Source: Listeria grayi DSM 20601
Lineage (GTDB): Bacteria > Bacillota > Bacilli > Lactobacillales > Listeriaceae
Reading direction: 5' to 3'
Length of the DNA: 64,000 nucleotides
Assembly: GCF_000148995.1 (NCBI RefSeq)
Contig: NZ_GL538352.1
Span: 310,001 to 374,000 of the forward strand
The notes beneath the pieces were generated by a model. It saw only the letters and a program-made list of their open reading frames with translations. It was not told the DNA's origin and made no database searches. This document shows positions 42,934-54,982 of this stretch, one piece after another (within the stretch, counting starts at the first letter, position 1; the number at the start of each line of letters is the position of its first letter). The translations under genes were made by a program, and so were the position numbers.

Positions 42934-42987
42934 AAAAGTTCCGTCCCAAAATGAGTGTAAAGCTCATCTTGGGACGGAACTTTTTTT
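42934..42987 (+). terminator. Terminator after gpx
   Basis: AAAAGTTCCGTCCCA (42934-42948) pairs with TGGGACGGAACTTTT (42970-42984), T run follows. Marks the left border of the accessory cluster. Confidence 0.9.
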
Positions 42988-43042
42988 GTCACAAAATCTT
43001 CACAAATTAAGCTGAAAACAAGCGAAATTACATTTTTAGCTG

Positions 43043-43167
43043 TGCTATACTTCACGAAGGGCACTTAATCTTTGATAAAAATGGCCGTGTTTTTCCAAAT
43101 AATTTGACATATTTTGGTCAAATTTAGACACATTCTTTAATCAAAAATGCAAAAGGCCGTGTTTTTC
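43043..43167 (+). promoter_or_regulatory. Leader of the first Crp/Fnr-type regulator: extended -10, inverted repeat, direct repeats
   Basis: An extended -10 TGCTATACT is at 43043-43051. Downstream, GGCCGTGTTTTTC occurs twice (43083-43095 and 43155-43167). Between them is a perfect inverted repeat AATTTGAC (43101-43108), eight bases, GTCAAATT (43117-43124), which also contains TTGACA. It looks like an operator, possibly for the regulator that follows; a second promoter TTGGTC-16-TTTAAT may overlap it. Confidence 0.45.
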
Positions 43168-43203: not shown

Positions 43204-43893
43204 ATGCCATTTTTTGAAGAGAAGAAAGGAATTACTATACCACAAATTTTAGATGAACTAAAAGAAAACAGTTTTAACAACGCTTGGGTCGTAGAAAAGC
43301 GCATCAAGAAAAACACCGTATTAGTCAATAATACAAATTCACAGAATGTCGTTTTTGTAAATAATGGAATCCTCATTACACTTCTTGGGGATAAATATAA
43401 TAAAAAACACATTTTTGAATTTCACCGCCGTGATTCTGTTATTGGATTTGACTACATTATGAGTGACAATTTTTCCAATATGCAGTATGACATCAAGGCG
43501 CTGGAAGATTCTCATATTACCTTTGTAAATGGTGAGTTTTTGTTAAATTATTTATCTAATCGACCAACATTTATGGAGAAACTTACAAACAGTTTGGCGG
43601 AAAGGATTTTTTATATCAGCAACCGCCAGATGATGACGATCTACTCACGTGAAAGAAAGATCATCAATGGCTTAGTAGAATTGTGCCGACAGGTCGGCGA
43701 ACCGATCGATACGCGCAATTATCTGATCCCAGCGTGTATCAATAAAACGAATATCGCGGAATACTGCGGTGTAGATCGAAGTTATTTCTCTAAAGTTTAC
43801 CGTTTGCTAGAAGGAAATGGGGCAATCGAGTTGACACCCTCTAACAGCTTACTGATCGATATCGTCAAGCTGGAAGAAATCATGAATGAGTAG
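43204..43893 (+). CDS. Crp/Fnr-type transcriptional regulator (cluster regulator 1)
   Basis: 229 residues, similar in size and layout to Listeria PrfA-like Crp/Fnr proteins: an N-terminal beta-roll without recognisable cyclic-nucleotide residues (about 15-130), a long dimer helix (MEKLTNSLAERIFYISNRQMM) and a C-terminal winged helix whose HTH is NKTNIAEYCGVDRSYFSKVYRLLEGNGAIEL (about 178-208). No cysteine cluster for Fe-S binding. SD GGGAGGA. First gene of the accessory cluster with an operator-like leader, so autoregulation is likely. Confidence 0.8.
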   Translation: MPFFEEKKGITIPQILDELKENSFNNAWVVEKRIKKNTVLVNNTNSQNVVFVNNGILITLLGDKYNKKHIFEFHRRDSVIGFDYIMSDNFSNMQYDIKALEDSHITFVNGEFLLNYLSNRPTFMEKLTNSLAERIFYISNRQMMTIYSRERKIINGLVELCRQVGEPIDTRNYLIPACINKTNIAEYCGVDRSYFSKVYRLLEGNGAIELTPSNSLLIDIVKLEEIMNE

Positions 43894-44026
43894 CTAATGT
43901 CATTAAAAAGTCATAATTACGGACTAATCATTTGATGAATGTGCAAATAAGTTTGTAAATATATCGATAAAATAAGAATGCACTGGAAAATATCTTACTT
44001 TTGAGGAAGAGAAGGGAGGGGAAAAA

Positions 44027-44917
44027 ATGGATCTATTTGCAACCATTTGGCAGTTTATGCAACTGTTTTATCTGCTTCTTCCCGAAATAGTTCTAATTAT
44101 GGCTGGGTTTTTCCTAGTTAAATGGGTATTAGACCGCATGATCTTACATCATTTTGTGAAACTAGAACTGCTTACGTATGAAGTAGAGAAGCAAAATAAG
44201 CAATACGAAATGATGAAAGCAGAATTGCAGAAAGTGGCGGACATCCAAGACAAACAAGCTTCTTACCTACATTGGGGAGAACTTCAGAAACAACAGGAAG
44301 CATCGGTGTGGCTATCATTCCCATATCTATTGCACATCAAAATGATCGATCTGCTACCGCAATTCAACAAGCAGATGGAATGGTATAAGCAGTTGCTTGC
44401 AGAAAACAAAGTGGAACAGACCAAGCAACAGGAACCGAAACTAAAACTCGTCATCTCTCCGCTTCTTCGGATTCAGCGTCAGAAACTCAGCGAACGCTTG
44501 CAGGCCTTCCAAGCCGAACGACTCCTGTTTATGGAAGACTGTATTGAAGAGAATGACGGCTATCTGATTCATCTTCCAGCTATTTATCAGGCGGAAAAAT
44601 GGGCAGAACAGTTAGAAGAACAAAGTGAAACGGAAGCCTTCTTCTTAACACTGAAAAAAGACATCGATCAGACTAATTATCTGACAGCCGAGGAAAAGGA
44701 AGGCTTAGCGCAGTTTGCTGCATTTTATGAATCACAATGGGAATATATGAAGTCCATTTATATTGGCAAATTTGAAAATAGCACATCCTGTTATCTAACG
44801 GCTTATCAAAATGGAATGGAAGAATACTTACAAGATAAAGAGCCAATTGCGCCATATACATTGAGTTATTGGGAGGCAATATTGGAAGAGGAGAAAGGAA
44901 GAAAGGCATTTGCTTAA
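44027..44917 (+). CDS. Membrane-anchored coiled-coil protein of unknown family
   Basis: 296 residues, not recognised. One strong N-terminal membrane helix (about 17-38), then a heptad-like stretch KLELLTYEVEKQNKQYEMMKAELQKVADIQDKQ (45-80) and a largely helical, Gln/Glu-rich remainder with many aromatic residues, presumably cytoplasmic. SD GGGAGGGG seven to eight bases before ATG. It overlaps the next small membrane gene by eight bases, which couples their translation. The pair could form a membrane-bound complex with the Ig-like protein encoded next. Confidence 0.65.
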   Translation: MDLFATIWQFMQLFYLLLPEIVLIMAGFFLVKWVLDRMILHHFVKLELLTYEVEKQNKQYEMMKAELQKVADIQDKQASYLHWGELQKQQEASVWLSFPYLLHIKMIDLLPQFNKQMEWYKQLLAENKVEQTKQQEPKLKLVISPLLRIQRQKLSERLQAFQAERLLFMEDCIEENDGYLIHLPAIYQAEKWAEQLEEQSETEAFFLTLKKDIDQTNYLTAEEKEGLAQFAAFYESQWEYMKSIYIGKFENSTSCYLTAYQNGMEEYLQDKEPIAPYTLSYWEAILEEEKGRKAFA

Positions 44918-45272
44918 TAATCTATTGATTGCAATTGTGAGCTTAGCTGTTATTACTTATTGTGCTTTATACATTCGGCTCTTTTTCAGAACGACGCTAA
45001 CGAGAATAGATTTTTTCTTGATTGGCCCGTTAAAGAAGCACATGACTTTTTTTCAAACACACCATGCTGAAATGATTGCTCAGATCCGGCGTGTGTATAT
45101 CCACTACTTTTTATTCCTACTCAGCATTGATGTCTCCCTTTTCTTTAGACAGGAAAGTTGGGTATGGATCGTCTTGCTAGTTGTGATCGTTATGGCGATC
45201 CTCTGCTGGCGCGTAGACAAAAAATATGAGCAGATCATCAAGATGCGCGTGAAAGGGGAGATCCATAAATGA
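44910..45272 (+). CDS. Small multi-pass membrane protein, unknown family
   Basis: 120 residues from TTG at 44910 (AAAGGAAGAAAGG upstream). Predicted helices at about 4-26, 66-80 and 84-98, with a basic loop KKHMTFF...RRVYIH between the first two and a charged tail. Not recognised. Overlaps the preceding gene by eight bases and the following one by four (ATGA), so three genes are made as a tightly coupled set. Confidence 0.62.
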   Translation: MLNNLLIAIVSLAVITYCALYIRLFFRTTLTRIDFFLIGPLKKHMTFFQTHHAEMIAQIRRVYIHYFLFLLSIDVSLFFRQESWVWIVLLVVIVMAILCWRVDKKYEQIIKMRVKGEIHK

Positions 45273-47221
45273 AGGAAAAGAAAATACGCTTTTTGAATGA
45301 CCGTAATACTGAAACTGAAACAGCAGAAAAAACGGGCACGGTCATTCAAGGAGAACCGATCACGATCGAAAAAGGCACAAGTAGTGTCGACTGGTTGGAC
45401 TATGTGACTGCTTCCGATGCAGTAGATGGAGACATCACAGCACAAGTGAAGGTGAATGACAGTTTTGTTCATTTGAACGAAAGCGGTCAATACCTATTAG
45501 TTTATGAAGTAACTAACAGTCGGAAACAAACGACTTATAAAAGTATTTTAGTAACGGTTCAAGATAAAACGGAAGAGACACAAGAAATCTCAAAACCGCC
45601 TATTTTAGAAGATCTCCCTGATGAGCCAGAAAAAGAACTGGGCGAATTAGTCGAAGAGATCTATCAACATGAGGAACAAAAAGCAAATACGCTTGTAAAA
45701 GAACAAGAAGCTGATTATGCGGACGATCCGATTGAAGCATTCAGACAAGATGCTCGAGAAACGTCTTCCTCGGAACATAAAGAATTGCGTATCCCCAGCA
45801 ACAGTGAACCTGCTTTTCTCGAAAAACTTCTGACAGAAGGTATCCAGTTATCGTCCGGAGAATTGATCTGGCTCGATAAAGCGTATCTGCAAAAACACCA
45901 TTTTCAACTTGGAGAGCCGGGACGCTATTGGGTGCCGTATCGAACGCATCCAAATGAATTAGGGAATTCTCACTATGAAAGTCAGCCGGAGCATTGGCTG
46001 CTGATCATTGTCGGAAGAGAACGTCCTTTACTATACGCCAATGATATGGAAATCAAAGCGGGCACACCGCGAGCGCAAATCGATTGGCTTAAAGGCGTCA
46101 TCGCATTTGATCCATTTGATCAAAACATCACAGCAAAAATCAAATGCGAACCACAAATGGTATCGCTCAGCAAAGAAGGCCTATATCCTGTCACTTATCT
46201 GGTAACGAATTCAGCTGGGGTAACGACAACATTATACCGATTAGTAGCTGTCAAAGCAGAGCGTCCTACATTGAAAGTAGCGAGTTTGCAGATCGAAGCA
46301 GGTTCAGAGCCGCGAGATATTGATTGGTATAAGAGTATAACAGCCTACGATGTCGTCGATGGGAATATTGTTCAAAATTGTCAAGTGGACTACAGCAAAG
46401 TGAATTTTGAACAAGATGGCACCTATCCAATTGTTTATACCGTGCGGAACAGCAATGGTAAAGAACAAAAAGCATGGACTGAAGTTGAAGTAAATGCAGT
46501 AGAGCCAATTATTTCCGGCGAACCTTTTGAAGTGACGGCAGGAAGTTCCGTCCACGACATTGACTGGAAAGCCAATATCCATGTATATGATCCTGTCGAT
46601 CAAGATCTACTTGAAGAAGTAGAAGTGGATCTGGGAAATGTAGATATTTCCAAAGAAGGCCAATACGAAGTTCACTATAAAGTAGCTAATAGCAATCATA
46701 AAATAGGCGAGCTACGAATCCAAGTTTTTGTAAAAGCCGAAGTTCCGCATCTCCATTCCGATCCGATCACGATCACTGCAAACCGGATCATCGACTCGCG
46801 AATGGATTGGAAGCAAAATCTAATCGCGGAGGACAAAGTCGATGGCAATATCGCAGAGAAAGTACGCGTCGACTTTTCACAAATAGATCCGCAAGTGGAA
46901 GGAACGTATCAAATCTACTTTGAGGTAAGTAATTCTAATAATAAAACAGCCAAGATCGAAGTACCTGTTTTTGTAAAAGCAGAAGCACCAACGATCGTTG
47001 CCTCGCCGATCCATATGTCGCTTGGAACCGAAGTCGATCATTTCGACTGGCTGAACGGCGTCTTGGCAACGGATAAAGTCGATGGCGACATTACCACGAA
47101 TCTGACCGTGTTTTATCAGCAGGTCGACAGTAATACAGCAGGCGAATACACAGTTACGTATTTAGTAAGAAATTCTAATCATAAACAAGGCAGCCGCACA
47201 ATGGCTGTTAAAGTCCAATAG
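45269..47221 (+). CDS. Protein of tandem Ig-like (DUF5011-type) repeats without export signal
   Basis: 650 residues. Six clear bacterial Ig-like units, each with a pattern such as I-x-x-G-x(4)-D-W...A-x-D-x-V-D-G-x-I...G-x-Y-x-V-x-Y-x-V-x-N-S: one at about 23-97, and five in a row from about 252 to the end, plus a degenerate one near 180-248. Between the first and the degenerate unit lies an acidic, probably unstructured linker. The N-terminus (MKEKKIRFLNDRNTETET) is no signal peptide, and there is no membrane helix or sorting signal. The ATGA overlap with the preceding gene fixes the start. Either it stays inside or leaves by a non-classical route. Confidence 0.78.
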   Translation: MKEKKIRFLNDRNTETETAEKTGTVIQGEPITIEKGTSSVDWLDYVTASDAVDGDITAQVKVNDSFVHLNESGQYLLVYEVTNSRKQTTYKSILVTVQDKTEETQEISKPPILEDLPDEPEKELGELVEEIYQHEEQKANTLVKEQEADYADDPIEAFRQDARETSSSEHKELRIPSNSEPAFLEKLLTEGIQLSSGELIWLDKAYLQKHHFQLGEPGRYWVPYRTHPNELGNSHYESQPEHWLLIIVGRERPLLYANDMEIKAGTPRAQIDWLKGVIAFDPFDQNITAKIKCEPQMVSLSKEGLYPVTYLVTNSAGVTTTLYRLVAVKAERPTLKVASLQIEAGSEPRDIDWYKSITAYDVVDGNIVQNCQVDYSKVNFEQDGTYPIVYTVRNSNGKEQKAWTEVEVNAVEPIISGEPFEVTAGSSVHDIDWKANIHVYDPVDQDLLEEVEVDLGNVDISKEGQYEVHYKVANSNHKIGELRIQVFVKAEVPHLHSDPITITANRIIDSRMDWKQNLIAEDKVDGNIAEKVRVDFSQIDPQVEGTYQIYFEVSNSNNKTAKIEVPVFVKAEAPTIVASPIHMSLGTEVDHFDWLNGVLATDKVDGDITTNLTVFYQQVDSNTAGEYTVTYLVRNSNHKQGSRTMAVKVQ

Positions 47222-47240
47222 AAGAAAGTAGGAAAAAATA

Positions 47241-47480
47241 ATGACAAAAACAAATGCATGGAAACAAATCAAAGTAGGTATGATCGGGATTTTGTTAGTA
47301 AGCAGTTTATCCCTAGCAGCATGTTCCAATGATAAGAAAGAAACAAAAAAAGATACAAAACCAAAAACAGAACACAAAGTAAAATCGATCGAAAAGAAAT
47401 CCAACGCAGCAACAGTGAAAGTAGTACCTAAAAAAGAAGGTAAAAAAACAGAAAAGAAAAAACCAGCAAATAAAAAATAA
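47241..47480 (+). CDS. Lysine-rich small lipoprotein
   Basis: 79 residues. Signal peptide with a lipobox, LSLAAC (cleavage before Cys about 29), then 50 residues dominated by Lys with Thr, Glu and Pro (for example KKETKKDTKPKTEHKVKS, KKEGKKTEKKKPANKK) and no predicted fold. The strong positive charge on the outer face of the membrane could bind teichoic acids or other polyanions. SD GAAAGTAGGA-type, weak. Follows the Ig-repeat gene by 19 bases. Not a known family. Confidence 0.72.
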   Translation: MTKTNAWKQIKVGMIGILLVSSLSLAACSNDKKETKKDTKPKTEHKVKSIEKKSNAATVKVVPKKEGKKTEKKKPANKK

Positions 47481-47558
47481 TCGTTTGCCACAAATTGCTC
47501 GCAACACTTGAGTGATTTGTGTGAACTAAAATGATTGATAATATAGAAGATTACAAAA

Positions 47559-47591
47559 GAAGATGGAGAGTATCACGATACCTCCATCTTC
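47559..47591 (+). promoter_or_regulatory. Stable hairpin upstream of the giant surface protein gene
   Basis: GAAGATGGAG (47559-47568) pairs with CTCCATCTTC (47582-47591), and the interior GTATC/GATAC pair too, leaving almost no loop. Only a weak T-rich tract follows (TTCCGTATT). It may be a terminator of the upstream operon, an attenuator, or an mRNA-stabilising structure. Confidence 0.5.
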
Positions 47592-47643
47592 TTCCGTATT
47601 AAAACAGGCTGTAGTCATGTGAATGACAAAGGGAGGAAAAATA

Positions 47644-50600
47644 ATGAAAGCAAAAAAATACACCATTTGGGCCGTTACCATATTACTGCTTTTAAGCGTA
47701 TTTATTGCCTTAGCGAAACCGATCAATCATCTCTATACGCAAGTCAATACACAAAAGAGTGCAGATGCGGCGGAACCACCTTATTTTACTGGTGTGGAAG
47801 ATACGACAATTGAAAAAGGGTCGCTTTGGAGTCCATATCAAGGGGTTATAGCCCGAGATCCGGGTCAAAATAATGTCGATATCTCTGGCTACATTGAGGT
47901 AGAGGATAATGTGAAATCGAATAAATGGGGTACATACAAAGTTTACTATTCTGTTAAAAGTCCAAAGACAGGACTTGAAGCGACAGCTGAGCGAACGGTA
48001 AAAGTAGTGGTCTCAAGCGTTTCCAAAGCTACTTTGACAGTACCAGCTACAAAGGAGATCAAAAAAGGAGACGCCTTTTCCAATAAGATCGCGATGGAAG
48101 GAATCGTTGCGACAGACGGCGATGGCACTAATCTTGCCGCTCGTGTTTCTTGGGATTCCAGCAAACTGGATACGAATACTATTGGGAGTTACCCGGTTGT
48201 TTATAGTGTGACCGGACAAAATGGCCAAGAAGTGACAGCTGTTTCTACGATCAAGGTAGTAGAAGGCTCGAATGAAGTTATTGGAGATGCGACGATCGAA
48301 GCTTCTGACAAGACGGTCACAGAAGGGGACACATTCGATTATTATGAAGGTGTCAAAGCGTTCGATGGCGATGCGAAACATACGGATATCAGCGCTAATG
48401 TTAAACACCAAGGACGGGTCAATACGAACAGTCCCGGCAAATATCAGGTCATTTACCGGGTTACCGGAGCAAATGGGAATGAAGTGACGAAATCAATCAC
48501 AGTAACAGTAACAAAGAAACAAGAAACGATTACAAATGCGACGATCCAAGCATCTGACAAGACGATCACAGAAGGGGATACGTTTGATTATCTTAAAGAT
48601 GTTACGGCTAAAGACGGCGACGCGAAGCAGACAGATATTACTTCTAAATTAACATATCGGGGAACAGTCGATACTTCTAAACCAGGTAAATATACCATCA
48701 CTTATGAAGTTACTGGAGCGAACGGTAACAAAGTGACTCAAAATATTACAGTAACTGTCATTGCAAAACCAACTAATCTTGTTGATGCCACGATTTTTGC
48801 TAAAAACCAAACTGTCTATGTTGGTAGTACCTTTGATTATAAGAAAAACATCAGCGCTATCGACGGGGATGCAGCGAAAACGGATATTACTTCTAAAGTT
48901 ATTTACCAGGGAACAGTCAATATGTCTAGTCCGGGTGTGTATCCGATCACTTATAAAGTAACTGGAGCAAATGGAAATGAAGTCAGCAAAACGATTCAAG
49001 TAACAGTCATCTATAAAACTGGCGAACTATCGATCAGTAAAAAGTTGATCACAGCTACGGGAGAAGATTTCAAAGCAACAGCGGTCAATCCAGGAGATAC
49101 ACTTTATTATAAGATCACGGTTACAAATACAGTTGCCAACAGCGTAGTAGAAGCTGTAACTGTTAGTGATCAGCTTCCAGCAGGTTTGACTTATCAGGCT
49201 GACAGTTTGGAAGTGGATAATAAAAAAGTCGCAAATGCAGACTTAAAAGCAATTCATGTGGAAGATCTTTTAGGAAATAAAAGTCATCAGATCACTTTTG
49301 CCGCTAAAATAAATATGAACACCTCAGGAACAATCACAAACGTTGCTGGCGTTACAGGTAAAACGGTCGATAATAAACAATATGAAGCATCGACAGACGT
49401 ACGGAATCTCGAAAATGCGACGATCAATGCTAGCGATAAAGAAATCACAGTAGGGGATCCATTCGATTACAAGAAAGGGGTTACCGCTAAAGATGGTGAT
49501 CTGGCTCATACAGATATTACCGCCAAATTAACATACGACCAAAATGTCAATACTAGCAAAGCAGGCATTTACACGGTTACCTACAAAGTCACAGGTAAAA
49601 ATGGCGTGGAAGTCAAAAAGGCGATCAAAGTAACAGTAAAAGAGAAAGAAGTTCCTGTTACCAATGCGACCATTACCGCGAGCGACCGGACGATCGAATT
49701 GAACGAGTCATTCGACTACATGGCAGGAATAAAAGCCGTTGACGGCGACAAAGAAAAAACGGACATCACGAATAAAGTGACACATGAAGGAACGGTAGAT
49801 ACTTCCAAAGCAGGAAAATATACCGTTACCTACAAAGTAAAAGGCAAAAACAATAATGAAGTCAGCATTTCCATCAAAGTTACGGTAGTTGCTAAAAATG
49901 CCGTGATCACAGCTAATGACCGTTCCATTCAATTAGGACAGTCATTCGATCCGCTAAAAGAAGTACAAGCGAAAGATACAGATGGCTATCAAACGGATCT
50001 GACCTCAAAGATAAAAGTCAAAAGTAATAACGTCAATACCAATAAAACAGGAAAATATACTGTCATTTATGCCGTGACAGGTTCAAATGGGAATACCGTC
50101 GAAAAAACGATCCAGGTGACTGTCTTGCCAAAAGATGCTGAGATCATCGCAACCGACAAAACGATCCATCAGGGCGACGCTTTTGATCCAAAACAAGGCG
50201 TATCTGCCATCGATGGAGATGGAAACAATACAGATCTTACTGCAAAAATCACAATCGAAAAAAATACTGTCGATGTTTCCAAAGCAGGACAGTATGAAGT
50301 AACATACGGCGTTATCGGCTCTAGCAAAAACAAAGTGGTTAAAACAGTTAAGATCACTGTCATAGCCAACCAAGGGGATTTGACGATCACTAAAAAGGTC
50401 GAAAATGCTGCTGGGGAAGATTTAAATCAGCAGACGGTCATAGCTGGCGATGAGATCATTTACAAGATCAAAGTGAAAAATCCAATTGCTAATAGTGCCG
50501 TGCAACAAGTGGCATTAACGGACACCGTTCCAGCAGGAGCCGAGGTCCAAACCGATGCGGTTACTGTGAAAGGTACAAAAGCGACTCCGGTATGGAAAGG

Positions 50601-53082
50601 CAATAAAGTCACTCTTACTGCCGGAACGGTAACGGATAAAGATGAGATCGAAGTGATTATCTCAGTAAAAGTGAAGGCTGATTACTCAGGAGAACTTACG
50701 AATATTGCCAATGTTACTGGCGAAGCAGTCGCGGATAAAAACGCCAGCACGAGCATTGGAAGCAGAGAAGCAAATAAAGCTTCTATTATCGCCATCAATA
50801 AAAAAATCGAGATCGGCAATACTTTTGACCCGCTTCAAAATGTTACAGCAATCGATGAAGATGGATCCGATATAACGGCCAGTCTAAAAGTGATCAGCAA
50901 CAACGTCGATCCGCTTCGAATCGGTGTTTATAAAGTTGTCTATGAAGCAGAAGCAAGAAATGGAAAAATAACAAAAGAAATCGAGATCAAGGTCATTGGT
51001 AGGGATGCAACGATCATAGCGGATGATCAAGAATTATACGTGAATGATTCTTTTGATCCGCTTGGCATTGTAACGGCAATCGACGGCGATGGAGTCAACA
51101 CAGATATTTCTCGAAACGTGCGAGTAATCAATAGTAATGTAGATACCAGTGTATCCGGAAATTATCAGGTCACTTTTGCTGTAGTTGGTATAAACGGCAA
51201 CGAGATCAGTAAAACGGTCAAAGTAAAAGTAATCGCAAATGATGCCGTTATCCAAGCCGACAATCGAATAAGTATAATCGGAGAAGATTTCGATGCACGA
51301 AAAGAAGTCCGAGCAATCGATGGCGATGGACGTGAAACGGATTTAACCGCTGATTTGAAAATCACGATGAATACCGTGGACACGCAGCATGCCGGTGAAT
51401 ATGATGTTCGTTATGAAGTTACAGGCGAGAACGGGAATCTTGTTTCTAAAACGATTCGAGTGACCATTGTCGCTAAAGATGCAGTCATTCAGGCAACAGA
51501 CAAAAAAATAGCTGTTGGCGATTCCTTTGATCCACTTAAAGACGTTACAGCAGTTGATGGGAATGGCTATGATACAGACTTGACTTCCAACATCAATATT
51601 ACTGCTAATACGGTAGATACTTCCCATCCTGGCAATTACACCGTTACGTACAGCGTCACTGGCGAAAACGGGAATGAAGTCACTAAAACGATTAATGTGG
51701 TCGTTCAAGAAAATCCAGGCGACCTGACTATTTCCAAAGAAGTTGCTAACACAAACGGTAATACAACAGCGGCGCCTGGTGATGAGATCATGTATACAAT
51801 CAAAGTGAAAAACCCTACTACTAAAGGAAATGTGCATGAAGTTGTTATCAAGGATGATCTACCGAAAGGGATCCAGCTCAATGAAGCGAGCATAAAAGTA
51901 AATCAAGAAAATGCAAGCTACGAATTAGCAGGAAACAAATTGAAACTGACCATCGGTGATATTTTGGCGAATGAAGAGAAAGTTATTACTTTCAAAGCCA
52001 AAGTGACAGCCGAAGCAGCAGTAGAGATCACAAATATCGCTAAAGTAACAGGTGTAAATACGGCCCATGATTCAGAAGCAGATGCAGTTATCGAAGGAGA
52101 ATATCAAGATGCAAGTATCTACGCATTTGATAAAACGATCCAAGTCGGAGACAAATTTGATCCGCGGAAAGCTGTAACTGCTAAAGACTCCGATGACCGC
52201 GACCTTACCGCTATGCTCCAAATCAAAGAAAACACAGTAGACACGAACCAAGTTGGCGAATACAAGGTGGTTTACGGTGTTACTGGTAAAAATAAAAAAG
52301 AAGTAGTGAAAGAAGTCAAAATCACAGTTGTTTCTAAAAATGCGATCATTGTTGTTGATGATAGCACACTAACACTTGGCGATTCCTTTGATCCAATGAA
52401 GGGTGTCCGCGCCTATGACGGTAATGTCAGCCTCGTCCAAAAAGCAGCTTCTCAAGCTACTGATATTACTTCTGCTGTTACGATCGAAAGCAACAATGTC
52501 GACACGAAAAAAGTTGGAGAATATCAAGTTGTGTATACGGTCGCAGGTTCGAATGGAATCCAAGTCAAGAAGACAAGGAAGATTTCGATATTGGCGAAAG
52601 ACGCCGTGATCAAAGCAGAAAACAGCACGATCAAAGTCGGAGAAACTTTCCAACCGCTTAAAACAGTCAAAGCCTATGACGGCGATGAAAAGCATACTGA
52701 CATCAGTGCGAAGATCGAAGTGAAACAAAACAAAGTCGATAATAAAAAAGTCGGTAGCTATCCAGTTACTTATGCAGTGGTAGGAAGCAACGGCAAAGAA
52801 ATAACGAAACAGATCGCAGTTACCGTTAAAAAAGATAAGAAACGAGATTCCTCGTCTGGCGGTACCAAACCAAAAGATCCGGAAATCAAACCTGATCCAA
52901 GTGATCCAAAAGATCCAAAAGATCCAAATCCGGTAAAAGTCACTGAAACAAAAGCTAAAAAAGCAGTGAAACGATTATTGAAGACAGGTGATGTCTCAAC
53001 GATTTACTATACAGGACTCGGATCATTGCTGATCATCGGTGCGTGGTTACTACGCAGATATAATCGTAATAACTGGATCTAA
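47644..53082 (+). CDS. Giant cell-wall surface protein: 16 Ig-like and 3 DUF11-like domains, variant sorting signal
   Basis: 1812 residues. Signal peptide (hydrophobic 8-24, likely cut after ADA near 42). Then Ig-like DUF5011-type units of about 78-85 residues, with x-D-K-x-I-x-x-G-D-x-F-D near the start, D-G-D...T-D-I/L-T in the middle and G-x-Y-x-V-x-Y-x-V-x-G-x-N-G-x-E-V at the end. Order: five Ig, DUF11-like, four Ig, DUF11-like, four Ig, DUF11-like, three Ig. The DUF11-like units begin G-[ED]-L-[ST]-I-[ST]-K and hold PGD-type and LPAGL-type motifs. A Pro/Asp/Lys linker (DPSDPKDPKDPNP) precedes LLKTGD, a membrane helix and RRYNRNN. SD GGGAGG; the ATG at 47623 is too early. Probably a wall-anchored fibrous adhesin. 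Confidence 0.9.
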   Translation: MKAKKYTIWAVTILLLLSVFIALAKPINHLYTQVNTQKSADAAEPPYFTGVEDTTIEKGSLWSPYQGVIARDPGQNNVDISGYIEVEDNVKSNKWGTYKVYYSVKSPKTGLEATAERTVKVVVSSVSKATLTVPATKEIKKGDAFSNKIAMEGIVATDGDGTNLAARVSWDSSKLDTNTIGSYPVVYSVTGQNGQEVTAVSTIKVVEGSNEVIGDATIEASDKTVTEGDTFDYYEGVKAFDGDAKHTDISANVKHQGRVNTNSPGKYQVIYRVTGANGNEVTKSITVTVTKKQETITNATIQASDKTITEGDTFDYLKDVTAKDGDAKQTDITSKLTYRGTVDTSKPGKYTITYEVTGANGNKVTQNITVTVIAKPTNLVDATIFAKNQTVYVGSTFDYKKNISAIDGDAAKTDITSKVIYQGTVNMSSPGVYPITYKVTGANGNEVSKTIQVTVIYKTGELSISKKLITATGEDFKATAVNPGDTLYYKITVTNTVANSVVEAVTVSDQLPAGLTYQADSLEVDNKKVANADLKAIHVEDLLGNKSHQITFAAKINMNTSGTITNVAGVTGKTVDNKQYEASTDVRNLENATINASDKEITVGDPFDYKKGVTAKDGDLAHTDITAKLTYDQNVNTSKAGIYTVTYKVTGKNGVEVKKAIKVTVKEKEVPVTNATITASDRTIELNESFDYMAGIKAVDGDKEKTDITNKVTHEGTVDTSKAGKYTVTYKVKGKNNNEVSISIKVTVVAKNAVITANDRSIQLGQSFDPLKEVQAKDTDGYQTDLTSKIKVKSNNVNTNKTGKYTVIYAVTGSNGNTVEKTIQVTVLPKDAEIIATDKTIHQGDAFDPKQGVSAIDGDGNNTDLTAKITIEKNTVDVSKAGQYEVTYGVIGSSKNKVVKTVKITVIANQGDLTITKKVENAAGEDLNQQTVIAGDEIIYKIKVKNPIANSAVQQVALTDTVPAGAEVQTDAVTVKGTKATPVWKGNKVTLTAGTVTDKDEIEVIISVKVKADYSGELTNIANVTGEAVADKNASTSIGSREANKASIIAINKKIEIGNTFDPLQNVTAIDEDGSDITASLKVISNNVDPLRIGVYKVVYEAEARNGKITKEIEIKVIGRDATIIADDQELYVNDSFDPLGIVTAIDGDGVNTDISRNVRVINSNVDTSVSGNYQVTFAVVGINGNEISKTVKVKVIANDAVIQADNRISIIGEDFDARKEVRAIDGDGRETDLTADLKITMNTVDTQHAGEYDVRYEVTGENGNLVSKTIRVTIVAKDAVIQATDKKIAVGDSFDPLKDVTAVDGNGYDTDLTSNINITANTVDTSHPGNYTVTYSVTGENGNEVTKTINVVVQENPGDLTISKEVANTNGNTTAAPGDEIMYTIKVKNPTTKGNVHEVVIKDDLPKGIQLNEASIKVNQENASYELAGNKLKLTIGDILANEEKVITFKAKVTAEAAVEITNIAKVTGVNTAHDSEADAVIEGEYQDASIYAFDKTIQVGDKFDPRKAVTAKDSDDRDLTAMLQIKENTVDTNQVGEYKVVYGVTGKNKKEVVKEVKITVVSKNAIIVVDDSTLTLGDSFDPMKGVRAYDGNVSLVQKAASQATDITSAVTIESNNVDTKKVGEYQVVYTVAGSNGIQVKKTRKISILAKDAVIKAENSTIKVGETFQPLKTVKAYDGDEKHTDISAKIEVKQNKVDNKKVGSYPVTYAVVGSNGKEITKQIAVTVKKDKKRDSSSGGTKPKDPEIKPDPSDPKDPKDPNPVKVTETKAKKAVKRLLKTGDVSTIYYTGLGSLLIIGAWLLRRYNRNNWI

Positions 53083-53097
53083 AACGATAGAAGCGTA

Positions 53098-53124
53098 TCA
53101 GCGGACACATTAGTTGTTCGCTGA
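53098..53124 (+). terminator. Hairpin after the giant surface protein gene
   Basis: TCAGCGGACA (53098-53107) pairs, one mismatch, with TGTTCGCTGA (53115-53124), followed by CCGCTCTTTCTT. A partial terminator at best; downstream genes could still be read. Confidence 0.5.
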
Positions 53125-53159
53125 CCGCTCTTTCTTGTTAGGAAAGGAGTGGAAGATAA

Positions 53160-53552
53160 GTGGAATACGAAGCTATCCATGTAGAAATGCTTTCGTTAGA
53201 GCAAGGTGAATTTGAAGCAAAGAATACTATCGATGCGACTGCACAAGAATTATTGCTGGGAGATCAAAAACTGCATATCCAATTAAACGTTCCATTTGCG
53301 ATCGCAGACAAACATTACCGCATTTCTGGAAAAATCAAACAGATCATTCATATCGAAAAAAATGAAAGCAACTCCTTTAAAGCATTTATGGCGGAAAGAG
53401 AAAAAACAATTTTTGTTCCTTTATTAGAAAGAATGCAACAACTGGTTGCCTCTGTCACCAAAGAAGTATGGCAGGAAGAACAAAACTGGCAATTCTCAGT
53501 GCCACAAAGAAACCCGCAGCTTCACGTCGTAGAAGATAAGACAAGGCAATAG
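53160..53552 (+). CDS. Hypothetical protein with SecB-like features
   Basis: 130 residues from GTG at 53160 (AAAGGAGTGG upstream). No signal or membrane segment. Four to five beta-strands (HVEMLSLEQGEFEA, DQKLHIQLNVPFAI, HYRISGKIKQIIHI) are followed by a long helix PLLERMQQLVASVTKEVW and a terminal strand (NWQFSV). This strand-strand-strand-helix order resembles SecB and SecB-like proteins of Firmicutes (DUF1149 group). Placed directly after a giant exported protein it might be its export chaperone. The similarity is by eye and weak. Confidence 0.45.
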   Translation: MEYEAIHVEMLSLEQGEFEAKNTIDATAQELLLGDQKLHIQLNVPFAIADKHYRISGKIKQIIHIEKNESNSFKAFMAEREKTIFVPLLERMQQLVASVTKEVWQEEQNWQFSVPQRNPQLHVVEDKTRQ

Positions 53553-53575
53553 GTGTAAAGGGGGAGAATCAAGTA

Positions 53576-53911
53576 ATGGGAATGCTCATCATGTTTCTAA
53601 CGATTAGTTACTTGATTATAAATGGGGGGATGATTGGGCTTATTATTTTCAGGTTATTCCGAAAAGGGCCTGTATGGGTGGAAAATGCAAAGCGGACTGC
53701 TCTATATAGTTCCTATATCGTTGGTCTGCTTTGTTGTTTATTGGAAGTTGGAAACGTTTTTAATGTGCTGTTTAACGGCTTAAAGTTTCGATTGAATATT
53801 TTTATATATTTATTTTGGATAACAGCGACATTTTTCATTGTATATTATGTGGCGAGAGGATTTTTTTACCGCAAGTATACGAACCAAAAAGAGAAAGGTA
53901 AGGAAATATAA
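53576..53911 (+). CDS. Small membrane protein of unknown family (A)
   Basis: 111 residues with three helices (about 3-25, 42-66, 73-95) and basic ends (FRKYTNQKEKGKE). SD GGGGGAG ten bases before ATG. No family recognised. One base separates it from the next gene, so the two are co-translated; both are of similar size and topology and may form a pair. Confidence 0.6.
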   Translation: MGMLIMFLTISYLIINGGMIGLIIFRLFRKGPVWVENAKRTALYSSYIVGLLCCLLEVGNVFNVLFNGLKFRLNIFIYLFWITATFFIVYYVARGFFYRKYTNQKEKGKEI

Positions 53912-53912
53912 A

Positions 53913-54269
53913 ATGGGGAAACATACATTTATCATTGGCAGGCTCATCAAAATTAGCGCTATCTTTTTCACTGTCATTGGGATTGTTAGCCTATATATAA
54001 TCGCTTACCAAGTGTTAACGTCTATTAATAACGAGAAAGAATTATATGAAAAACTAACGGGATATGTTTATAATGTCGTTCTACCAATGTTATTCAGTTT
54101 GATATGGCTGTTTTTCAACTATCAAATTTGGGACATTATTTTTTTAAAGATAAGAAGTAAGATAATTTATGTTTTTGTTTGCTTATTTGCAATTAGCATG
54201 TTAATTAGCGGCTTTATTGCTTTTTATACAAAAGATATTCTTTTGTATTGGCTTCATTTTATTGTTTAA
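53913..54269 (+). CDS. Small membrane protein of unknown family (B)
   Basis: 118 residues, three or four helices (about 10-34, 50-70, 78-98, and a shorter hydrophobic end). ATG at 53913 with AAAGGTAAGG upstream; a longer frame begins inside the previous gene in another frame and is not credible. Not recognised. Sits between membrane protein A and the second regulator. Confidence 0.58.
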   Translation: MGKHTFIIGRLIKISAIFFTVIGIVSLYIIAYQVLTSINNEKELYEKLTGYVYNVVLPMLFSLIWLFFNYQIWDIIFLKIRSKIIYVFVCLFAISMLISGFIAFYTKDILLYWLHFIV

Positions 54270-54288
54270 AATTTGGAGGATGATGAAA

Positions 54289-54858
54289 ATGAAAAAAACT
54301 CTCATGACGAATAAACCTTTAGCTAAACAAGAGTATTATCAAATCAACAAGAACCAGGCTTTCTTTCATAAAGGGAGTTTTTATATCTTATCAGGCATCA
54401 TTGTTTGCCTTTATAAAGAACAATTCATTGCCGCTTATCAGGCAGGGGATACTTTCTTTATGGATGAAGACATTATCCCCAACCTTACTTTTGTTGCAAA
54501 ACGGGATACACATTTAATTGCTTCGGAAGCCTATATGATAGAAGAAAAAAGGAATCAGCTGATCCATCAATTTTTCAATCAGTTATCCAGCCGTTTGGTC
54601 AACTATTCTTACCGGACGGAAGAGCGGATCACAGCATTATTTTTTACATTAGGATGCCAGATCGGTGAGGTGAAAAATAACAGCTGTACGATACCATCGA
54701 TTTTTACACAAAAAGAACTGGCTTCTTTTACAAATGTAACCAGAGAATACTATAATGCTCTATATAAGAAGTGGAAAGATGAGGCCGTTATTACTTATAG
54801 TAAGAAAAACTGGATCTTAAATAATTGGACTAGCTGGGTAGCGCGACATCAGATGTGA
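54289..54858 (+). CDS. Divergent Crp/Fnr-type regulator (cluster regulator 2)
   Basis: 189 residues from ATG at 54289 (TTTGGAGG, nine bases). Short N-terminal beta-roll (about 15-85, with KGSFYILSGIIVCLYKEQFIAAYQAGD), dimer helix (EEKRNQLIHQFFNQLSSRLVNY) and C-terminal winged helix with FTQKELASFTNVTREYYNALYKKWKDEAVI (about 143-172). It is about 40 residues shorter than regulator 1, mainly in the sensor domain, and no effector-binding residues can be recognised. Last gene of the cluster; followed by a terminator. Confidence 0.7.
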   Translation: MKKTLMTNKPLAKQEYYQINKNQAFFHKGSFYILSGIIVCLYKEQFIAAYQAGDTFFMDEDIIPNLTFVAKRDTHLIASEAYMIEEKRNQLIHQFFNQLSSRLVNYSYRTEERITALFFTLGCQIGEVKNNSCTIPSIFTQKELASFTNVTREYYNALYKKWKDEAVITYSKKNWILNNWTSWVARHQM

Positions 54859-54870
54859 GAGCCAGAAAAA

Positions 54871-54906
54871 ATGCGGAGTGGATGATTTCACGTCCGCTTT
54901 TTTTTT
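54871..54906 (+). terminator. Terminator at the right border of the accessory cluster
   Basis: GCGGA with TCCGC plus an inner GTG/CAC pair, followed by nine T residues. Confidence 0.75.
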
Positions 54907-54982
54907 ACCAGAACCATGTCTTTTAACGCGTATTCTATGATATACTTATGCAATATGAGTTTATCTAGGAGGAAGAAAAGGA

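Follow-up and report, generated by a model that had tools for sequence, protein, structure and literature searches.

A ten-gene block with a giant Ig-repeat protein and two Crp-type regulators in the variable gpx-prfC slot of Listeria grayi

Between the conserved genes gpx and prfC, the 64,000-nucleotide stretch of Listeria grayi DSM 20601 analysed here (positions 310,001 to 374,000 of contig NZ_GL538352.1, termed the window, from a 2.6 Mb genome in four contigs) contains a block of ten genes, in which a Crp-type regulator at either end encloses a giant immunoglobulin (Ig)-repeat protein, a second Ig-repeat protein, membrane proteins, a lipoprotein and a DUF1149 (SecB-like) protein. Our preferred reading, a tentative one that we place somewhat short of an even chance, is that the genes of the block would form a functional unit and represent an elaborate version, peculiar to the species or strain, of an arrangement that recurs in Listeria: a local regulator of the Crp/PrfA-like kind encoded 5' of a large exported adhesin. 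The view that the block acts as a unit is supported by its ten same-strand genes, two of whose junctions overlap, lying between terminator-like hairpins; by the adhesin pairing of the close relatives of the first regulator, the lipoproteins that follow adhesins in five loci and the location of the second regulator type at polysaccharide genes; by a giant protein free of cysteine, compared with a 650-residue Ig protein that has two cysteines and no signal peptide; and by a DUF1149 gene that is the only copy in the genome, the usual locus lacking one.

Regulator 1 (43204-43893; 229 residues) has the cNMP-type sensor and C-terminal Crp helix-turn-helix (HTH) of the Crp/Fnr family. Pfam found both the HTH_Crp_2 and the cNMP_binding domain, each below its cut-off, residues 15-198 align with Lmo0740 (4rfa; phmmer, E 7e-7), and a profile built from the regulator 1 family alignment matches Lmo0740 and CRP structures. 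Regulator 1 thus shares with the PrfA/Lmo0740-type regulators, to whose superfamily PrfA itself belongs, its alignment with Lmo0740 and its membership of a large Listeria set, and differs in that its closest relatives often stand 5' of adhesins. In 36 Listeriaceae genomes (the source genome and 35 others, one genome per species; termed the family genomes) 33 contained a match to regulator 1 at E 1e-5, and this search revealed many Crp/PrfA-like regulators per Listeria genome, most of which have, to our knowledge, no known role. The Fnr sub-type carries an N-terminal cysteine cluster for Fe-S. The cysteines of regulator 1 (161, 178 and 188) and of regulator 2 (42, 125 and 135) form no such cluster. 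The initial annotation, which described two Crp/Fnr-type regulators, is upheld for the Crp-type HTH, seen in both proteins at scores below the Pfam cut-offs.

The adhesin pairing was assessed in 22 close relatives of regulator 1: leaving regulator 1 aside, 20 of its 22 best matches were used, two being skipped, and two weaker matches from the source genome were added. A regulator was scored as paired when the product of the next gene on the same strand was 300 residues or longer and predicted to be exported, using a crude export test rather than a trained predictor, and 115 genes from 19 regions at round positions in six of the genomes served as the control. By script, such a gene lay directly 3' of 10 of the 22 regulators, compared with 3 of the 115 control genes (Fisher p 3e-7, with orthologous loci counted as independent). 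Reading the loci raised the pairing to 16 of 22 by adding six (L176, L177, L181, L183, L185 and L190) in which the surface gene was fragmented or its start misplaced by the open reading frame (ORF) rule; as the control was not read as generously, the fair comparison is 10/22 versus 3/115. In the remaining six loci there was no gene in reach on a short contig (L173), a surface gene 5' of the regulator (L180 and L182) or no surface gene (L188, L189 and L191). Within the source genome the best relative of regulator 1 (E 9e-28) lies directly 5' of a gene for an LPSTG protein, the second adjoins one for an LPKTG protein and the third adjoins no surface gene. Pfam assigned Big_15, Bact_surface_Ig-like, Big_6, MucBP, FNG, lectin and pectate-lyase-like adhesive domains to ten surface proteins of these loci, and when a genome collection was scanned for a single motif conserved in the regulator family, 11 loci were confirmed, all from Listeria.

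In five loci (L172, L174, L175, L179 and L187) a lipoprotein gene follows the regulator-adhesin pair, and four of the five lipoproteins are clearly interrelated; regulator, adhesin and lipoprotein thus make up an apparent three-gene cassette. Surface genes are in pieces in L176, L177 and L190, as is the regulator itself in L178, which may represent decay, switching or sequencing error.

The giant protein (47644-53082; 1,812 residues, with its start set as in the initial annotation) carries a signal peptide by the same crude test, Bact_surface_Ig-like domains (PF16403) in 16 stretches and a DUF11/isopeptide-type domain in three. Its C-terminus displays the hydrophobic stretch and positively charged tail of a sorting signal, scoring 19.0 bits against Gram_pos_anchor (cut-off 20), with the motif LLKTG (LLKTGD in the tail) in place of the LPxTG of sortase-anchored proteins. 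Of 15 matches to the anchor family in the source genome (E up to 1), 12 were read as genuine sorting tails; 11 of these have LPxTG, and that of the giant has LLKTG. The sortases covered in the accessible part of a review take proline at the second motif position, some alanine and one evolved enzyme methionine, with leucine not among them (PMC9126251). As leucine is absent from this list, the giant protein may or may not be anchored to the wall, and its tail may serve as a membrane anchor. The initial annotation read the 1,812-residue protein as a wall protein; its sorting motif is LLKTG, not LPxTG, and its display on the wall is putative. Compared with Bact_surface_Ig-like (DUF5011)/DUF11 proteins of the sortase type, the giant shares the signal peptide, the long Ig array, the three DUF11/isopeptide-type stretches and the sorting-like tail, and differs in LLKTG for LPxTG and in the cytosolic-looking Ig array encoded beside it. 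The giant contains no cysteine, and the mature part is likewise cysteine-free in 12 of 14 exported proteins of the compared loci (the others have two and one); ORFs of at least 200 residues in the window average 0.57 cysteines per 100 residues.

Regulator 2 (54283-54858; 191 residues) is a short Crp-type protein in which Pfam found HTH_Crp_2 alone (E 1.7e-5; 25.1 bits versus a cut-off of 27), and it has a match at E 1e-3 in 34 of the 36 family genomes. Its 20 best relatives other than itself, 18 of them from the second Listeria genus of the classification, were read in their loci. In about 12 of the 20 the regulator gene marks the 3' end of surface-polysaccharide genes or is no more than two genes away from it, a count made by reading and without a control. 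Nine upstream neighbours were put to Pfam, of which six matched glycosyltransferase, epimerase, UDP-sugar dehydrogenase or O-antigen-ligase families and one an ABC ATPase, with no family found for two. An exported protein is encoded directly downstream in only one of the 20, showing that the two regulator types differ in habit. One branch of Listeria Crp-like regulators is thus often located 5' of adhesins (L170-L191) and another often closes surface-polysaccharide genes (L221-L240); these genomic habits seem distinct, and they support a putative role of both types in the control of surface structure. With one branch at adhesins and another at polysaccharide clusters, Crp-like regulators become testable as local cell-surface switches.

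The architecture of the block agrees with what had been described from the sequence. All ten ORFs are present at the lengths claimed on the + strand, to which every coordinate given here refers, inside 43204-54858, and each start is preceded by a purine-rich, ribosome-binding-like stretch. The overlaps are exactly as claimed (8 bases at 44910-44917 and 4 bases at 45269-45272), and terminator-like hairpins close both sides. On the left, 3' of gpx (42934-42990), arms of 22 nucleotides (42934-42955 and 42963-42984), 95% complementary, are followed by a T run; on the right, after regulator 2 and before prfC (54875-54908), a 10-pair stem at 54875-54900 is likewise followed by a T run. A consensus terminator scan lists the hairpin 3' of regulator 2 and omits that of gpx, which came from the inverted-repeat search; the scan returned 11 sites compared with a mean of 10.5 in shuffled sequence, that is, no excess.

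The slot itself was surveyed as the stretch upstream of prfC in the family genomes, reading mostly 12 kb in the 35 others and less in a few at a contig or stretch end. A distance of 2.8-3.4 kb separates gpx from prfC in 15 of the 36, where they enclose one four-gene set, alike in size and order, encoding a small protein (the single copy put to Pfam is LytTR), a 142-residue protein, an ABC ATPase (named from its Walker motif by reading) and a 284-residue protein, the last in two pieces in one genome. The two flanking genes are merely 93-535 bp apart in nine genomes, nine have other genes in the slot (4-11 kb), two have no gpx within the stretch read, and the source genome is unique. The gpx-prfC junction is therefore a variable slot. 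The statement in the initial annotation that L. monocytogenes carries lmo0984-0987 here fits the four-gene ABC/LytTR set found in 15 Listeria genomes. The notion that the slot is an adhesin hotspot, prompted by a 1,268-residue exported protein in one relative, was rejected, as in that relative, the one genome with other genes that was put to Pfam, the protein is a pullulanase encoded beside a subtilase and a flotillin.

Several observations weigh against the view that the block is a functional unit belonging to the regulator-adhesin arrangement. Recurrence of the ten-gene order, named earlier as the support to look for, is absent from the slots of the 35 other genomes, where no protein resembles any of the ten at E 1e-3 in a search that recovered the flanking genes; together with the lack of a convincing relative of the coiled-coil protein, this indicates that the gene order does not recur in what was searched. 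Both regulator types and DUF1149 are widespread without the giant, which is part of what had been named as evidence against a unit. Among 20 lower-ranked, hand-picked relatives of regulator 1 (E about 2e-12 to 4e-8) the pairing falls to 3/20 (p 0.04 versus the same control), and the habit thus belongs mainly to the branch nearest regulator 1. In the source locus the gene directly 3' of regulator 1 encodes a non-exported coiled-coil protein, not an adhesin, and the giant gene, on the same strand, follows after four intervening genes. No operator was identified for regulator 1 in a search that did not include PrfA boxes, the sole palindrome upstream of it not being significant. The block is not one tight operon, as gaps of 133, 163 and 77 bases ahead of the coiled-coil, giant and DUF1149 genes, respectively, allow several transcripts. 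Base composition is mixed: the GC content of both regulators and of the two small membrane genes ahead of regulator 2 is 0.29-0.37 against a background of 0.421 (sd 0.025; 40 ORFs), while the giant and 650-residue Ig genes are not AT-rich, which fits a composite island. The two cysteines of the 650-residue Ig protein, compared with about 3.7 expected at the window average, are only a mild sign of a cytosolic location, and the DUF1149 protein departs at 14 of the 21 columns conserved in the other 14 rows of its family alignment, arguing against an unchanged DUF1149 role. The earlier claim of function as a unit is thus partly supported: the regulator habits favour it indirectly, and a gene order found nowhere else in the search and a coiled-coil gene without a convincing relative speak against it.

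A rival reading is a composite island without common function, in which the variable slot would have accumulated the giant gene, an unrelated membrane pair, a DUF1149 gene and two regulators acting on their own neighbours or elsewhere. We regard such an origin as a serious possibility, albeit one clearly below an even chance. The slot contents, ranging from the four-gene set in 15 genomes through nothing in nine and other genes in nine to the unique block described here, speak for it, as do the differing base composition of the parts (an argument tempered by the core gene gpx, which is likewise AT-rich at a GC of 0.372) and the independent occurrence of DUF1149 and both regulator types elsewhere. 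The uniform strand, the two overlaps, the terminator-like borders and the habitual position of the close regulator 1 relatives at adhesins are less easily reconciled with an island of this kind.

The product of the DUF1149 gene (53160-53552; 130 residues, GTG start) belongs to PF06619 at 36.1 bits (cut-off 25), compared with 124-162 bits for four core copies from two Listeria and two other genera, and it is 20-28% identical to the 14 other proteins aligned. A study of Lactobacillus casei proposes a DUF1149 protein as a SecB homologue on the basis of a modelled structure (PMC6201924). With this protein and the DUF1149/SecB-like structures 2hng and 2o2a the block's copy shares its PF06619 match, its size and the seven residues that are invariant in the 15-row alignment, and it differs in the 14 altered columns, in being the sole copy and in adjoining a giant surface gene. 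It is the only DUF1149 in the source genome (whole-genome search up to E 10). In eight other Listeria loci the DUF1149 gene adjoins a gene that reads as a phosphate permease, with a glyoxalase-like gene between the two in five; in the source genome (L169:5724-7217) the permease-like gene is directly followed by the gene that elsewhere follows DUF1149, and the DUF1149 and glyoxalase-like genes are missing. A sole copy, and a usual place left without one, would be expected if the gene were simply the lineage's general DUF1149 gene, relocated and serving many precursors rather than the giant. This could well be so, though we lean modestly the other way: the low score, the low identity and the changed columns exceed what is expected of a moved orthologue, and the gene starts only 77 bases after that of the giant. 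The SecB-like export helper of the initial annotation thus belongs to the DUF1149 family, and its dedicated role is putative.

The 650-residue Ig protein (45269-47221) displays PF16403 in six stretches, two cysteines, a net charge of -45 and no membrane segment, and it looks cytosolic; that it has no export signal, as previously stated, is borne out by the crude test and by the absence of a recognisable signal peptide or anchor. Similarity of the Ig type links it to the giant, and links both of them to numerous other proteins. It was rejected as a fragment of the giant, as its repeats look like another sub-type (a DW...DG motif, by reading) and are 24-35% identical in the matched stretches. 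Its middle region retrieved only itself and two weak matches from 395 genomes of the order, and its plasmid relatives are annotated as Ig-like or DUF5011. Such relatives carry a domain type usual outside the cell, and of the two Ig arrays at the locus only this one has no export signal; both features would suit a one-time surface protein, now without use after the loss of signal peptide and anchor, in which case the genes for the coiled-coil and small membrane proteins would have nothing to do with the fibre. We consider this unlikely, given an open frame of 650 codons with typical codon usage, a ribosome-binding-like site, a 4-base overlap with the upstream gene and two cysteines, a residue absent from 12 of the 14 exported proteins used for comparison. 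The same domain type could point to a second surface subunit that leaves by non-Sec secretion, which is quite improbable in view of the missing signal, the two cysteines and neighbours that include no known exporter family. Explanations such as these, confined to single parts, overlap with both the unit and the island, and the likelihoods we attach to them do not sum to one.

The coiled-coil protein (44027-44917; 296 residues) is an orphan with one N-terminal hydrophobic, predicted membrane segment (residues 13-31); the coiled coil was assigned by reading, not computed. Searches found no family for it in Pfam or NCBIfam, itself alone in the 36 family genomes, and no relative in viral contigs or plasmids. 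The 395 genomes of the order gave four matches, itself and three weak ones, and none was confirmed by a pattern scan, which detects close relatives only, of a collection representing each of 84,980 species by one genome. The weak matches to this protein (three genomes, E 9e-4 to 7e-3) and those to the central part of the Ig protein (two genomes) were taken as chance; in the four of these five genomes whose neighbourhoods were read (all but G368), no match to other cluster proteins was present at E 0.05. Three small membrane proteins accompany it, one of 120 residues (44910-45272; TTG start), which overlaps its neighbours by 8 and 4 bases, and two with three membrane segments each, of 111 (53576-53911) and 118 residues (53913-54269; GC 0.286). 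They were searched against Pfam, NCBIfam, PHROGs and PADLOC, and one also in plasmids. The 120-residue protein has no Pfam family and no plasmid relative, whole-genome collections not having been searched, and neither Pfam nor NCBIfam returned a family over cut-off for the 111-residue protein or any for the 118-residue protein. Against the fetched loci, these three and the coiled-coil protein gave, beyond copies of themselves, only a match at E 5e-4 for the 111-residue protein. The Lys-rich lipoprotein (47241-47480; 79 residues), identified by reading from its lipobox-like LAAC, has Pfam and NCBIfam matches only far below cut-offs. Apart from the coiled-coil protein and the small membrane proteins, the parts of the block are of known kinds; what is odd about the 650-residue Ig protein is its place.

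If the block is a regulator-adhesin unit, regulator 1 would most likely control the genes downstream of it. The 1,812-residue protein would leave by the Sec route and be held at the surface by its C-terminal signal, with the lipoprotein as a surface accessory, and the DUF1149 protein, as a holdase of the SecB-like kind, would prevent the long precursor from folding before it reaches SecA. A cytosolic complex bound to the membrane, made up of the coiled-coil, small membrane and cytosolic Ig-repeat proteins, may assist or gate export of the giant, and regulator 2, with the two small membrane proteins before it, could provide feedback from the end of the operon. We infer every one of these functional steps; what we observed are the genes with their domains, overlaps and borders, the places that the closest relatives of the regulators occupy in their genomes, and the lack of a DUF1149 copy of the standard type. 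In a more far-reaching version, which we consider improbable, the block would be a dedicated assembly system for a giant fibre, in which the cytosolic Ig protein, tethered by the orphan coiled-coil and small membrane proteins, mimics or holds the fibre repeats together with the divergent SecB-like chaperone and couples export to the two Crp-type regulators. Whether a SecB-like protein of a Gram-positive bacterium serves a single giant client, and what role an Ig-repeat array has inside the cell, can be tested directly at this locus.

Accessory Sec systems (SecA2/SecY2/Asp) encode cytosolic and membrane helpers beside one giant serine-rich fibre. The locus is similar to these systems in having putative helper genes next to one giant exported protein; none of its ten proteins matched a SecA2, SecY2, Asp or glycosyltransferase family in Pfam or NCBIfam. 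Pfam likewise gave no WxL family match in the block; the regulator 1 relative of L178 is found at a cluster of genes for proteins with putative WxL-like motifs at the C-terminus. Phage origin was rejected, as PHROGs returned one weak match of unlabelled function for eight of the ten proteins and pattern scans found no viral-contig relative of the coiled-coil and Ig proteins, the latter showing only Ig-type similarity to five phage records. Plasmid origin was rejected for want of a near DNA match in plasmids, a defence system because PADLOC gave only matches at E 0.004-0.01 for seven proteins, taken as chance, and an RNA element because the two families matched, both eukaryotic, scored far below gathering thresholds, again taken as chance. 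A limited literature search, which is no proof of absence, found neither the locus nor the regulator-adhesin pairing described.

Two non-coding features complete the block. Upstream of regulator 1, a 31-nucleotide direct repeat is present twice (43065-43095 and 43137-43167) with identical 13-nucleotide ends, making it a candidate regulatory element; a 13-nucleotide exact repeat arises in 5 of 1,000 shuffles of this stretch. The palindrome AATTTGAC-N8-GTCAAATT at 43101 was discarded, as it arose in 137 of 1,000 shuffles and its core is absent upstream of 13 related regulators. The 163-nucleotide leader of the giant gene contains two strong stem-loops (47489-47598), seen as inverted repeats, and the RNA fold of 47481-47660 has a z-score of -4.4, with none of 200 shuffles as stable. 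Since the stem-loops are not followed by a U-run, they seem more likely to be a processing or translational control site than a terminator.

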